DNA from: Desulforamulus ruminis DSM 2154 | GTDB taxonomy: Bacteria > Bacillota > Desulfotomaculia > Desulfotomaculales > Desulfotomaculaceae | Reading direction: 5' to 3' | Assembly (NCBI RefSeq): GCF_000215085.1 | Contig: NC_015589.1 | Coordinates: forward strand, 620,001 to 684,000 | Length of the DNA stretch: 64,000 nt | Shown: positions 47,828 through 53,202 of the stretch, piece by piece | Numbering within the stretch: the first letter of the stretch is position 1 | Layout of the letters: each line of letters begins with the position of its first letter | Translations under genes and position numbers: made by a program | Notes under the pieces: model-generated | What the model was told of the DNA's origin: nothing | The model's database searches: none | Seen by the model: only the letters and a program-made list of their open reading frames with translations

Positions 47828-48013
47828 TTATTTTTTGGATTGGTCAAAGGATAAGGTATTATAAGCTTCCGCCAGTTCTCTTAACAGAGATTCATTATCC
47901 GCATCCAAGCAATTTCTTTGATTCAGGTTGACACAATTTTCAATAGGACATTTAAAACAACTCATGATTTGGCATTTAATGCATTCGCAACTGAAACAAT
48001 TAGCCCAATCCAT
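47828..48013 (-). CDS. Small cysteine-rich protein, unknown
   Basis: This about 61-residue protein has eight cysteines in 33 residues (CFSCECIKCQ, CFKCPIENCV, NCL), ideal for zinc or an iron-sulfur cluster, and then a short acidic helix. ATG at 48013 is preferred, after AAAGTAGG. The upstream ATG at 48034 has no ribosome site and would include that sequence. It has no signal peptide. I recognise no family. Confidence 0.55.
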   Translation of the reverse strand: MDWANCFSCECIKCQIMSCFKCPIENCVNLNQRNCLDADNESLLRELAEAYNTLSFDQSKK

Positions 48014-48617
48014 TTGTTTACAACCTACTTTCATTACAAAATAAAAAAACAGAGATGAATCCCCCTGTTTTTAGTTTTGGCAGCCTGGCAATCATACCGA
48101 ACTTGGCTTAGACCCATGGCTTTGCGCCCCCATTTTTCAATGGATTTGCCTTTTCATACTATTTAACTAAGTAAATTATCAACCGAATCTTATCTACATT
48201 TTATAGAAAAAAACAGGTTTATTCAATATTTGTGTAACAATTTTAAGAAAAAAGCCAACCCATTATTGAGGGATTTTCAAATTTTTATTATTTATATTCA
48301 TGTGTATTGTATTCATGCTAGAGGTCCGTTGAAATATTCTTTTTCTTGCTCCTATAGTAAAAATCTTAAAAAATATGCATCTCAGTTCATACGCAAGGGC
48401 ACACGGTGTTTACCGCCGTCCTTGTTTGTTTTTAAAGAGAAATAACTAGGGGGAAGTTGTTCTATGTCCAGGAGCGTATTAATAAAATTATGAATGATAT
48501 TAGTCTGGAAAAGCTGAATTCCGGCAGCGAGCTGGAATCAAAATAGATATAAAATAATATTTGTTTTTAATTTAAACCTAGTTTAAATAATAATTTTGTA
48601 TACAGTTGTACAAGACA
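48014..48617. other. AT-rich region with no supported gene
   Basis: A weak hairpin (AAAAACAG ... CTGTTTTT, about 48047-48076) lies at the left. A short frame of 29 codons at about 48461-48546 has no spaced ribosome site, and the 71-codon frame at 48230 is A/T-driven. I see no real gene. Confidence 0.5.
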
Positions 48618-48820: not shown

Positions 48821-49138
48821 TTATTCTTCTACTTTTTCGGTATCGTCCCCATATCCTTTTTCTTCCTGATATTGCTCCTCATCCCCGTGACCGCTTTCAT
48901 CCTCTAGGTCGGTCTGTTCTTCTTCCGCCGGTGTGACTTCCCCGGGGTTAGCTTCTTCTTCCAGGCATTCCGCTACCGCCTTAAACAGGATTTTATAAAC
49001 TTCCGCAGTATTTTCAGCCAGAGCCTGTAATCCCTGAATTTTAGGTTCTATTTTTACTTCCTTGGCCTCAAAGGCCTGTTCCAGTACCATCAGGGTCAAC
49101 TCTGCGGCAATTTGCGCTGTGTTGTTTCCATCAGCCAT
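48821..49138 (-). CDS. Small acidic-tailed protein, unknown
   Basis: This about 105-residue protein has a helical first part (AAELTLMVLEQAFEAKEVK, then a second helix around VYKILFKAVAECLEEE) and a very acidic C-terminal tail rich in Glu, Asp and Gly from about residue 63. ATG at 49138 follows GAGGAGGTG at 5 bases. I recognise no family. The tail suggests either cation binding or contact with a basic partner. Confidence 0.6.
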   Translation of the reverse strand: MADGNNTAQIAAELTLMVLEQAFEAKEVKIEPKIQGLQALAENTAEVYKILFKAVAECLEEEANPGEVTPAEEEQTDLEDESGHGDEEQYQEEKGYGDDTEKVEE

Positions 49139-49215
49139 CCGAACACCTCCTCTCAAAAAATTTGCTGAATACTTCTACAGAAAGAATGGAAAATCCTGTA
49201 TTTAAAAACACAAAT

Positions 49216-49499: not shown

Positions 49500-50060
49500 A
49501 TGAACATCGGTATTGATTTAGACGGCACTGTAGCGGATAATCTGGAGCTTTTGGTTGAAACCTTAAATCAACATTGTGGAAAAAGACTGGTTGGCGATGA
49601 AATACGTCAGTATGACCTATGTAAAACCTACTGTATTTCTGAAGAGGAATTTATTGAATTAATGGAAACCAAAGAAGAAGAAATTATTGTGCAAAGCCCG
49701 GTTGTTCCCATGGCCCGGGAATATATTGAAAAATTAGCCGGTCAGGGATGGCAGATCCACATTATTACGGCCCGGCATCCCAGGTATCATGAGATTACCA
49801 GGAAGTGGCTTGAAAGAAACGACATTCCTTTCTGCGGTCTGCATTTGCTGAATTCCCATAACAAATTGCAGACATGTCAAAACTTAGGGGTTAAAATGAT
49901 GGTGGAGGATAACATACACAACGCCTATCAGTTGAAAGCCGGCGGGATTCCAACCATCCTGTACGAGGCTCCCCATAACCGTTATTGGTCCTGGCAGGGA
50001 ACCCGCTGCAAGACCTGGAAAGAAATATACCAGACTATTGAGACAAAATTGGATAAATAA
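49500..50060 (+). CDS. HAD-superfamily 5'-nucleotidase-like protein (NT5C type)
   Basis: This 186-residue protein starts with the HAD nucleophile motif GIDLDGTVADN, has IHIITARHP (motif II region) in the middle, the motif III Lys region (SHNKLQTCQNLG) and MMVEDNIHNA (motif IV acidic pair replaced by VED.). This is the pattern of the small 5'(3')-deoxyribonucleotidase group. It should hydrolyse phosphate from nucleotides or a related small molecule in the cytoplasm. The ATG start has AAAGGTG upstream. It is a single gene, and the exact substrate is unknown. Confidence 0.85.
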   Translation: MNIGIDLDGTVADNLELLVETLNQHCGKRLVGDEIRQYDLCKTYCISEEEFIELMETKEEEIIVQSPVVPMAREYIEKLAGQGWQIHIITARHPRYHEITRKWLERNDIPFCGLHLLNSHNKLQTCQNLGVKMMVEDNIHNAYQLKAGGIPTILYEAPHNRYWSWQGTRCKTWKEIYQTIETKLDK

Positions 50061-50247
50061 CCGGAAGATTTAAAAAGCATTCTCGAAAAGGGAATGTTTT
50101 TTGTTTTTCCAGGGTTTGAACAGGAATTATCATTTTTGTAACGAAATACCTATCATGCACGCTAAGATACAGTTGCTGGGAGTAGTCGAATACCTGTAAG
50201 GCGGAATTGCAGGAATTCGAGTGGTTTCAAAAGAAGGAGGGTCCTTA

Positions 50248-52686
50248 TTGAAAAAAAGGTTATTGATAATTCTTTCTATGCTGGTGGGTCTATGGGTGCC
50301 CATGACTTCCGCTTGGGCAGGTCCCTTTAAAGATACTGCCGGCCAGTGGTGGGAACAGCCCATTGCCGAATGTTATGCCGCTGATCTTTTAAGCGGAAAA
50401 AGTGCCGGGATCTTTGCGCCTAAAAGTCCCGTAACCCGGCTGGAGTCCGTGGTTATATTAAACCGGGCCCTGGGTCACCGGAGTGAGGCGGATACTTATA
50501 GCATGTCCCAGGGTGGCTACAACTTCCCTGCTAATTTTCCGGAATGGGGAAAAAAGAATGTGGCCTTTGCGGCGGATCAAGGTTACATTTCCAAGGCCGG
50601 AATTGCTAGTATGGAACCTAAACACTCGGCCAGCAGAACAGAAATTGCCGTACTGTTTGCCAATGCCTTAAAATTATCGGCAGACGGTTATGAATTAACC
50701 TTTGCCGACAAGTCAGCCATTCCAAGCAATTTACAATCTTATGTGGCGGCTGCGGTAAAGCACGGGATTATGGTAGGCAAGGCCGGCAACAAATTTGATC
50801 CCAATGCCAGTGTAACCCGGGGTGAAATGGCGGCCATTATTGCCCGTCTCTTTGAAAATGGACAAATCAACCCCAATCCGGACCAGTATTTTGTAGCTGC
50901 AATCAGTTCGATAGACACGGCGGCTAAAAAGATTACCGTGGTTAAAGGGGGACAAACCCTTACCTACAGTCTGGCTGCGGATTCCGTTCAGTATCGTAAC
51001 GGGGCTCAGAGCAATTTAAGTTCCTTCAAAGCCGGAGAAAATGCCAAAATCGTGCTGAATGACAGCAAAGGGGTAAGTTTTCTGGCTTACACCACAGCCA
51101 GTCCGTCCGCCGGAAACATCTCCATCACCACCAACTATACGGGTACCATCCGGGGGCTGATATCCGGAAACCCTTGGTCCTTGTCCTTCCAGCCGGATAG
51201 TGGAACCTTAAATTCTTATCCTTTGCTGAGCACCGTAAAAATTACCCAGGGTGGGGCAGCTAAGGATTTGACGGCTTTAACCAACGGTGCCAGAGCGGAA
51301 ATTAAGGTGACCGGAGGCAGTGTGGCCGAGATTAATTTGCTGAACACGGTATCGGGAAATGAAACCAAGGCTTACGTGGTCAATATGTACCTGGATTATA
51401 TGACCGTTCGCTACGATGACGGAACCACCCAGGAAATCAACAAGTCTTCTGTAGCTTCCGGCTTCTATCAAATGCCCAGGGGGCAAAGAATTGCCATCAG
51501 CAAAACGGGAGGGGTTATCACCGGCATTACTCCGCTGGATGAGGTAAGAAAGATTTTTGGCGAAGTTGTCAATACCGGCAGTTCCGGCATCACCATCGAA
51601 GATCTGGACGGTTATGAGCGGGCCGTTGACCTGGCCAGCGGCTACCGGGTAAAGGATGAAGAGGGAGATACCATCGATCTGGACGACCTGGAAAAAGGGG
51701 ATGAGGTGGAGATTGAGATCAACAGCCAGGAGGATGCGGTGACCATCCGGCTGACCGATGGAGGCTCTTCCTCCTCCTCTGATCTGGAAGGGGAAGTTAT
51801 GGATGTGGATACTTCCGGGGACTACAGCATTAAAATTAAGAAAGCCAACGGCAGCACCAAAACCTATGATGTGGAAGATGACGTGGACGTTTATGACGAA
51901 GATGACGACGACCTGGACTTTGACGAGATTGACGAAGGGGACTATGTGAAGTTAAAGCTGGACAGCAATGATGACGTAACCCGGATTAATATCCTGGATG
52001 TGGAAGTGCTGGAGGGGGAAGTAACCGAACTGGATACTTCCGGAAGCCTGGGCATCACCATTGAAGATTCCGATGGGGATGAAGAGGATTATGAGGTGCT
52101 TTCCAAGGTAGACGTCTGGGAGGACTCCAAAAGCCGGGATTTCGACGATATTCGTGAAGGTGACCGGGTTCGCCTGATCCTCAATGAGGACGGGGATGTT
52201 TATCTCATCAACATCCTGGATGAAGATGATTCCGACGACGACGACGGCACCTATAAAGGGACTCTGGTGGGTCTGGATATTGACGACGACGAGCTGAAGC
52301 TTAAAAAGAGCGGAAAAACCACTACCTACACCTTGGCCAGGAAGGTGGAGGTGGACGACGGGGATTTGGAACTGGACGAATTGATTATCGGTTGTGAGGT
52401 TGAAATCGAGGTTGAGGACGGAGAAGTTGAGACCATAGAGGTGACGGACGACGAGGATATAGAAATTGAAGGTGAATTATATCGTATCGGGTCAGACCAT
52501 ATTCAACTGGAGCAGGAGAACGGATCGGACTCCCCCGCAAGGCACAAGTTTTATTTTGACGACGACGCCGATCTGGAGGATGACGAAGGGGATTCCATCG
52601 ATATCGATGACTTGGAAGATTTTGAAGGAGATGACGTTGCCATCGAACTGGAAGATGGCAAGATCGTTTACCTGGAAGTGAAGTAA
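50248..52686 (+). CDS. S-layer homology protein with tandem acidic repeats
   Basis: This about 812-residue secreted protein has a signal peptide (LLIILSMLVGLWVPMTSAWA) and three SLH domains at about residues 20-210 (FKDTAGQWWEQPIAEC, WGKKNVAFAADQGYI, LQSYVAAAVKHGIMVG) that bind pyruvylated cell-wall polymer. A beta-rich middle follows (about 215-430). From about residue 434 come five related modules of about 65-72 residues, each starting with an (E)GEV/EGEL-like strand and ending with an aspartate-rich loop such as DVYDEDDDDLDFDEIDEGD. The repeats are extremely acidic and probably bind Ca2+ or other metals. The start is TTG at 50248 after GGAGG. It is likely a surface-layer or cell-wall component. 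Confidence 0.88.
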   Translation: MKKRLLIILSMLVGLWVPMTSAWAGPFKDTAGQWWEQPIAECYAADLLSGKSAGIFAPKSPVTRLESVVILNRALGHRSEADTYSMSQGGYNFPANFPEWGKKNVAFAADQGYISKAGIASMEPKHSASRTEIAVLFANALKLSADGYELTFADKSAIPSNLQSYVAAAVKHGIMVGKAGNKFDPNASVTRGEMAAIIARLFENGQINPNPDQYFVAAISSIDTAAKKITVVKGGQTLTYSLAADSVQYRNGAQSNLSSFKAGENAKIVLNDSKGVSFLAYTTASPSAGNISITTNYTGTIRGLISGNPWSLSFQPDSGTLNSYPLLSTVKITQGGAAKDLTALTNGARAEIKVTGGSVAEINLLNTVSGNETKAYVVNMYLDYMTVRYDDGTTQEINKSSVASGFYQMPRGQRIAISKTGGVITGITPLDEVRKIFGEVVNTGSSGITIEDLDGYERAVDLASGYRVKDEEGDTIDLDDLEKGDEVEIEINSQEDAVTIRLTDGGSSSSSDLEGEVMDVDTSGDYSIKIKKANGSTKTYDVEDDVDVYDEDDDDLDFDEIDEGDYVKLKLDSNDDVTRINILDVEVLEGEVTELDTSGSLGITIEDSDGDEEDYEVLSKVDVWEDSKSRDFDDIREGDRVRLILNEDGDVYLINILDEDDSDDDDGTYKGTLVGLDIDDDELKLKKSGKTTTYTLARKVEVDDGDLELDELIIGCEVEIEVEDGEVETIEVTDDEDIEIEGELYRIGSDHIQLEQENGSDSPARHKFYFDDDADLEDDEGDSIDIDDLEDFEGDDVAIELEDGKIVYLEVK

Positions 52687-52756
52687 AGGGTCGCAAAAAA
52701 ACCGGAATGGTTGGATTGCGCAACCCTTTGTTTTCCAAAAAAATAAATAAAAAGAG

Positions 52757-52859
52757 AATAGAACGCGGATTTTACGGATTTCCGCGGATTCTCACGGATT
52801 TTATAATTTATAATAAAATCCTTGTAGATCCGTATCATCCGTTCAATCCGTGTTCTATT
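52757..52859. repeat. Long imperfect palindrome with CGGAT units
   Basis: The left arm AATAGAACGCGGAT... and the right arm ...ATCCGTGTTCTATT are complementary over about 45 bases with mismatches, around an AT-rich centre. Each arm contains several CGGAT(T) units at about 10-base steps. Similar intergenic palindromes are known to me from many bacterial genomes as dispersed repeats. It is not a transposase gene. Confidence 0.7.
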
Positions 52860-52938
52860 TCTTATCAGCCCGGTTGTTCGCCGGGTATCTGCCGTTCTTC
52901 AAGCGCTATGCAAAGTCGTTTTGCCACTGTCCCTTTTT

Positions 52939-53202
52939 TTATCTTTTATATCCTCCGAGGCTAAGGAGGGAATCGTAGAAGTCCAGTTCAGAAACCTGCA
53001 AATCGTCCCTAGGGTCTTCGGAAGGGGATTTATAAACCTGGCCGGTGGCTAAACTGGCCATGTCTCTTTTAATCAATAAACGAATATACTGGCTCCGGTT
53101 GGTTTCTTCAAAGGAACCTCGATTGATCTGAGTAATCTTTTTATCCAAATATTCAATTAGATCTTCCGGTATACTAATGGTAATGGTTTTGTGCCTGCGC
53201 AT
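52939..53202 (-). CDS. Ribbon-helix-helix DNA-binding protein
   Basis: This 87-residue protein has a CopG/Arc-type N-terminus (KTITISIPEDLIEYLDKKI, then a second helix with NRSQYIRLLIKRDM) and a short unknown tail. Members are dimeric repressors, often of antitoxins, plasmid or mobile-element genes, but no toxin gene is adjacent. The ATG start lies 8 bases after AAAGGAGG. It is divergent from the XRE gene at 53416. Confidence 0.85.
   Translation of the reverse strand: MRRHKTITISIPEDLIEYLDKKITQINRGSFEETNRSQYIRLLIKRDMASLATGQVYKSPSEDPRDDLQVSELDFYDSLLSLGGYKR

Follow-up and report, generated by a model that had tools for sequence, protein, structure and literature searches.

The window analysed here, a stretch of 64,000 nucleotides from the genome of Desulforamulus ruminis DSM 2154, contains a gene whose product joins SLH repeats to a row of modules, several of them strongly acidic. 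The locus raises the question of whether this product is a dedicated cation- or mineral-binding coat, as the initial annotation had suggested, or a structural element of the cell surface.

The gene, its product and the predicted wall anchor

By its open frame and translation, the gene at window positions 50248-52686 (forward strand) encodes an 812-residue protein from a TTG start. The ORF listing opens the frame at an earlier GTG (50221); the start at 50248 is favoured because of the position of the Shine-Dalgarno sequence, the hydrophobic N-terminus and the ATG or TTG codons found at the equivalent place in the orthologues. The features of the N-terminal part are:

50236..50240, forward strand: Shine-Dalgarno GGAGG, 7 nt before the TTG, read from the sequence
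50248..50319, forward strand: signal peptide, residues 1-24, cleavage site placed by eye, equivalent N-termini in the orthologues
50320..50862, forward strand: SLH anchor region, by Pfam and by resemblance to 6bt4 and 3pyw, SLH structures from Sap

Pfam recognizes two SLH repeats, near 50323-50445 and 50701-50832, which flank a divergent SLH-like segment, and the PF00395 match of the protein stands at 71.5 bits against a cut-off of 20.8 (E 5.7e-20); SLH repeats above the Pfam cut-off thus follow a signal peptide that was judged by eye. The SLH region is likewise present in 59/59 scanned members of the array family, the scan of the 63 frames leaving out the two without an N-terminus, L022 and L023, and the two L088 frames, one of which is complete. 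The same genome encodes the wall-polymer pyruvyl transferase CsaB (TIGR03609, E 2.3e-92, 309.5 bits against 213.1), together with 14 open frames bearing SLH repeats, counting this gene and its paralogue, i.e. 13 others. The signal peptide, the SLH repeats and the genomic CsaB in combination support a predicted anchoring of the protein at the surface, as the initial annotation had proposed.

The module array and its predicted fold

The remainder of the chain is a tandem array. The initial annotation had counted five modules of about 70 residues; the tandem repetition stands, and the count is corrected to eight because three further modules, M1-M3, follow the SLH part ahead of the five acidic ones. 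The modules, all on the forward strand, are:

50884..51135, forward strand: M1, residues 213-296, near neutral (profile comparison, array model)
51136..51366, forward strand: M2, residues 297-373 (profile comparison, array model)
51367..51549, forward strand: M3, residues 374-434, short (61 aa), OB-type by predicted fold only
51550..51783, forward strand: M4, residues 435-512, acidic (profile comparison, array model)
51784..52008, forward strand: M5, residues 513-587, with DEDDDDLDFDEIDEGD (profile comparison, array model)
52009..52248, forward strand: M6, residues 588-667, folded as a single module (pLDDT 89.7)
52249..52458, forward strand: M7, residues 668-737 (profile comparison, array model)
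52459..52683, forward strand: M8, residues 738-812, C-terminal (profile comparison, array model)

The profile-profile scores of the 28 module pairs were set against 224 column-shuffled nulls, whose mean was 10.7 and whose best score was 20.3. Eighteen pairs beat every null, with M5-M6 at the top (150.5), so that the repetition is above chance; the other ten, namely all seven pairs with M3 as well as M1-M2, M1-M8 and M2-M8, do not beat the best null. Through the pairs that beat every null, M1, M2 and M4-M8 are linked into one sequence family, M3 being tied to the other modules by its predicted fold only. With a profile grown over relatives, the window protein shows seven modules and each of five related loci (L016, L018, L019, L020 and L021) shows eight, and a phmmer search of the PDB with M3 alone gave a single match at E 0.89. 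The (E)GEV starts and Asp-rich loops described in the initial annotation are present, the latter in the outer five modules.

Structure prediction of single modules, also proposed there, was carried out for M6 and for 34 further modules from the window protein and five loci. The M6 model (pLDDT 89.7) has strands at 2-9, 14-19, 25-38, 53-58 and 64-70, with a short helix preceding 53. This is a barrel of five strands whose third and fourth strands are joined by a helical turn, and a single module is thus confidently predicted to be a small barrel of the OB type. A Foldseek search with M6 returned mostly OB proteins (best E 0.026). The first row from VIA-align is 9fs9, at a Z of 7.9 (rmsd 2.6, 68 aligned, 25% identity), where a Z under 8 may reflect merely a common arrangement; level with it are CusF (Z 7.9, 60 aligned, 20% identity), an engineered OB protein and single-strand binding proteins, a tie within the common range that weighs against reading the resemblance to 9fs9 as a sign of a structural coat. 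M3, as folded in the array model, aligns to the OB domain of EF-P (Z 9.4, rmsd 1.8, 60 aligned, 8% identity). The 600-aa array model itself has a pLDDT of 79.5 and a pTM of 0.34, so that it fixes no overall shape, extended or otherwise, and a Foldseek search with the whole array retrieved OB arrays (ribosomal S1, cold-shock repeats) alongside unrelated propellers, at TM-scores no higher than 0.15 by query length.

The resemblance to 9fs9 extends to sequence. In PDB searches by module profiles 9fs9 came third, at E 0.0054, after two AbrB-type chains, which slightly outscore it in that search, a further point against the structural reading; with a second module profile it came first (E 0.0036, AbrB-type chains 0.0042), and with a profile of 50 non-genus modules third, at E 0.18. 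The matched 9fs9 fragment, itself chosen by the search, beats 2000/2000 shuffles with each of the three profiles. A common origin of the module and the 9fs9 domain is, as far as these profiles go, a likely but tentative reading. In the available text on it, 9FS9 is described as spanning residues 765-844 of the Viridibacillus arvi S-layer protein, a self-assembly domain that forms the four-fold axis of the lattice (PMC11410804); the available text of a second paper gives V. arvi Slp1 as lacking an SLH domain and having a pI of 9.25 (PMC4902306). The 1,016-aa protein of one paper was equated with the Slp1 of the other by species and length. The shared features are the small barrel fold of Slp1 domain VI and a weak sequence-profile match across the whole module. 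In V. arvi, however, the four-fold axis is formed by one domain of this kind, whereas the window protein has eight modules in tandem, and Slp1 is basic and without SLH, whereas the window protein is SLH-anchored with an acidic outer part. This divergence of full-length Slp1 (PMC4902306, as far as its available text goes) counts against a direct transfer of its role to the structural reading; it also implies that the barrel assembly of V. arvi needs neither acid nor SLH.

A second point of comparison is the SLH-anchored S-layer proteins such as Sap of Bacillus anthracis, in which several beta domains in series come after the SLH part; those of Sap are beta-sandwiches. The SLH part of the window protein matches 6bt4 and 3pyw, and PDB searches gave no sequence match between its modules and Sap.

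In the window protein, none of the Pfam families listed covers a whole module above its cut-off, and its NCBIfam matches lie below cut-off only, one of them at residues 369-404. LysM_OapA (PF04225) reaches a whole-protein score of 32.1 bits against 22.3, with the best stretch covering positions 40-81 of an 85-position profile and no single stretch passing alone. CusF_Ec (PF11604) scores 20.0 and 22.0 bits, below its cut-off of 27. DUF5666 (PF18914), which we take to share a similar Gly, Ile and Val pattern with the modules, is absent from the 8 families listed for the window protein at E <= 10, a range in which the HMMER filters remove the majority of matches weaker than 0.1. Among the families listed for the relatives (25 of 35), LysM_OapA is matched by 28/59 members (best 3.6e-17), CusF_Ec by 9/59 and DUF5666 by 4/59 at E <= 0.01 (best 5.7e-9 and 1.7e-4, respectively), and NEAT (E 6.1e-7) and, weakly, EF-hand_8 (E 4e-4) by 1/59 each. 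We read most of these matches as probably reflecting shared small-barrel patterns.

CusF is a single-domain, soluble, periplasmic Cu/Ag-binding OB protein with a metal set of Met, His and Trp. The OB fold and the CusF_Ec matches in 9/59 members (among the families listed) would suit an account of the barrels as binding modules for wall or host sugars, or for Cu/Ag as in CusF. We consider this account very improbable: the CusF_Ec matches of the window protein stay at 20-22 against 27 bits; the metal set is missing from M4-M8, which by eye hold in all one Met (M5), one Trp (M6) and two His (M8); and the modules have no strongly conserved polar column besides glycine.

Relatives and charge along the chain

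An orthologue is present in 9/9 genomes of the genus examined, the own genome included, and the arrays of nine aligned rows (eight orthologues and the own-genome paralogue) are 48-62% identical to that of the window protein. In genome G002 the orthologue appears as two overlapping frames (L023 and L024) with the break between anchor and modules, in a draft genome of 72% completeness. At E <= 1e-5 the array profile matches 77/113 genomes of the order (40/55 genera; 58/80 good-quality genomes) and 83/398 sampled genomes of the phylum (63/266 genera). The family was assembled from 62 loci, which gave 63 frames carrying at least two modules each; the final alignment holds 437 module matches, and a reversed-sequence control for the module profile produced 32 weak matches, none below 0.01. 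An antisense frame, L042, with a single weak module match (E 0.0058) was dropped from the family. The 60 N-terminally complete proteins carry 5-10 detected modules, which begin around residue 225-300 and continue to the C-terminus. The paralogue (L011, at G000:C1:2728633-2730891) has seven modules by profile and little charge. In another relative (L031:3710-3790), a short, almost purely acidic low-complexity linker replaces M2, and one of M5/M6 is missing.

The initial annotation had called its five modules strongly acidic. This is accurate for M4-M8, which have a net charge of -101, a pI of 4.05 and 34.9% D/E; M1-M3 stand at net +4 (pI 9.18), and the SLH part has a net charge of 0. The acidity of the window protein is thus confined to M4-M8, where D/E make up 49% of loop and helix positions versus 25% of strand positions, with the strands taken from the array model.

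Across relatives the amount of charge varies widely. Over the last 380 residues the net charge is -100 for the window protein, -86 to -59 for five orthologues, -17 for three others and -22 for the paralogue. Among the 63 frames of the order, array charge ranges from -35.9 to +0.2 net per 100 residues, the window array being the seventh most acidic at -16.5. These two ranges, -35.9 to +0.2 in the order and -100 to -17 in the genus, rule out acidity as the defining feature of the family. The converse idea, of an acidity that is simply unconserved, was dropped as well, since the direction of charge along the chain is kept: in 54/60 N-terminally complete proteins the wall-distal 5/8 of the array is more acidic than the proximal 3/8, a split picked after inspection of the window protein. 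The mean distal-minus-proximal charge is -9.59 per 100 aa, a value reached in 0/2000 permutations of module order. As the proteins are related, 54/60 does not amount to 60 independent cases; the mean difference is negative in 16/16 groups (15 families and one locus without a family), four of which are weak (-0.9 to -3.7). Thus, on these sequence comparisons, the direction of the bias, i.e. greater acidity away from the wall, appears to be kept across the relatives.

The conserved columns of the 437 modules hold hydrophobic residues or glycine. The column richest in acidic residues has 61% D/E overall, 77% in the ten most acidic proteins and 45% in the ten least acidic; that no column exceeds 61% argues against a conserved cation site. 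Searches of the window protein with two motif patterns found neither an RTX GGxGxD nor a complete EF-hand loop; one partial DxDxSG, without the closing Glu, lies at residue 519 and reads (I/L)KTSG in 5/10 rows of the array alignment.

These observations bear most directly on the proposal of the initial annotation, a surface coat whose acidic modules mainly bind Ca2+, Fe2+ or mineral surfaces. Polyanions in general bind divalent cations, and the charge of M4-M8 (net -101, with 49% D/E in the loops), the distal bias kept in its direction, and the single EF-hand_8 (E 4e-4, weak) and NEAT (E 6.1e-7) matches, each in 1/59 relatives among the families listed, would fit such a function. Against it stand the absence of a conserved acidic column above 61%, the retention of the modules in members with a net charge near zero, the weakly charged paralogue in the same genome, the lack of GGxGxD and the partial DxDxSG at residue 519 that is (I/L)KTSG in 5/10 rows. 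We regard a dedicated coat of this kind as unlikely: three low-charge orthologues and the paralogue keep the scaffold, and the two motif patterns searched showed no RTX repeat and no complete EF-hand in the window protein. The distal half may plausibly bind cations in a non-specific way, given the conserved direction of the bias. As to mineral contact, Desulfotomaculum ruminis DL-T is described in the available text of PMC3569383 as a rumen sulfate reducer that stains Gram-negative, and a rumen isolate gives no special reason to expect contact with sulfide minerals.

Gene surroundings and the proposed role

The region upstream of the gene holds two candidate elements:

50137..50165, forward strand: candidate promoter, TGTAACG, 16-nt spacer, CGCTAA, from the genus upstream alignment
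50183..50223, forward strand: leader hairpin, directly upstream of the Shine-Dalgarno sequence (fold z -4.77, 0/200 shuffles as good)

GTAACG is kept in 6/8 aligned genus upstream regions; CGTC stands at the -10 position, 16 bases on, in 4/8 of them and not in the window. The layout presumably resembles that of ECF-sigma promoters. Scans of 49950-53000 for sigma-70-type promoters and for terminators came out near the shuffled expectation (5 vs 4.0 and 5 vs 3.9). The hairpin has z values of -2.98 to -3.82 in L017, L019 and L021, a moderate -2.08 in L016 and a non-significant -0.41 in L018, and is missing in L020 and in the aligned L024. In its alignment 84.5% of cells are paired versus 13.7-38.0% for slid controls; of 500 shuffles, 14 reached the percentage paired, 9 the covariation score, 137 the count of double-change pairs and 315 the count of pair types. 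The exact hairpin pattern occurs once in the genome, and a riboswitch in the leader was set aside as no Rfam family matched. Both the conserved promoter and the hairpin are missing upstream of the paralogue.

Among the short flanks of the loci, a 5'-nucleotidase-like frame (NT5C) recurs in 6 genus loci (the window included) and in L044; other flank clusters fall within one family, are ABC ATPases, or are apparent antisense frames of arrays. Directly 3' of the gene, at 52785-52832, lies an imperfect inverted repeat with two 23-nt arms that are 78% complementary. Further upstream on the reverse strand, a c-di-GMP-I riboswitch (48076-48160, 78.8 bits against 35) precedes a 68-aa cysteine-rich open frame (47828-48034), and a 111-aa open frame with a very acidic tail (48821-49156) had no Pfam match at E <= 0.01.

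The codon adaptation of the gene is 0.658, above 18/29 window genes, on a measure that separates poorly, the ribosomal and elongation-factor reference genes spanning 0.645-0.791. With so middling a value, codon use does not support a major S-layer protein. This bears on a further alternative, in which the protein is a lattice-forming S-layer subunit of D. ruminis assembled via its OB barrels in the manner of V. arvi domain VI. The fold shared with 9fs9 and the weak sequence match, the SLH anchor, the presence in 9/9 genus genomes and the paralogue in the genome point in that direction; the middling 0.658, the 13 other SLH frames of the genome and the fall of 9fs9 to E 0.18 with the non-genus profile point away from it, and we judge it improbable. 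Codon use unlike that of a dominant S-layer protein, the 13 other SLH frames and the array pTM of 0.34 also tell against our own structural reading. For a related organism, D. reducens, the available text of PMC4137172 reports S-layer proteins of unknown function in surface extracts. Among the papers searched, none joins the terms SLH, OB-fold and S-layer.

The reading that we favour, tentatively and at somewhat less than an even chance, is that the protein is an exported, SLH-anchored structural coat or stalk of eight OB-type barrels with an outward acid gradient. A structural coat is likelier than a dedicated mineral binder because the relatives share the string of barrels and the charge gradient and no fixed metal site. 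Its anchor domain, export signal, repeats, modelled barrel fold, wide conservation and direction of charge are taken as established at the level of sequence and prediction; docking, outward extension, packing and an electrostatic role of the array are what we infer from them. In such a coat the SLH region would dock onto the pyruvylated wall polymer made by CsaB, and the eight small beta-barrels of the OB type would reach outward in a row from the wall; those near it range from neutral to basic, and strong acidity marks the outer five. Like charges should then hold the outer part away from the anionic wall, so that it would offer a polyanionic, hydrated outer face, and neighbouring chains might possibly be packed through barrel-barrel contacts as in an S-layer. 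A broader proposal, that the tandem-OB SLH proteins form an unnamed, order-wide class akin to the V. arvi four-fold-axis barrel, building an oriented S-layer or brush whose gradient is tuned by lineage from near zero to about -36 per 100 residues, is conceivable and on balance doubtful.

The array is widespread (77/113 order genomes, 83/398 sampled phylum genomes) even though none of the Pfam families listed for the window protein covers a whole module above its cut-off. If the gradient and the barrel packing hold, the family would illustrate a simple rule for keeping wall-anchored chains extended and would provide a case of tuned surface charge on a retained fold. The sequence comparisons support a predicted row of OB barrels, tethered to the wall and growing more acidic outward, as a widespread layout of surface proteins, and they would make the protein a candidate envelope component of the sulfate- and metal-reducing Desulfotomaculum-type bacteria, whose envelope is little described.
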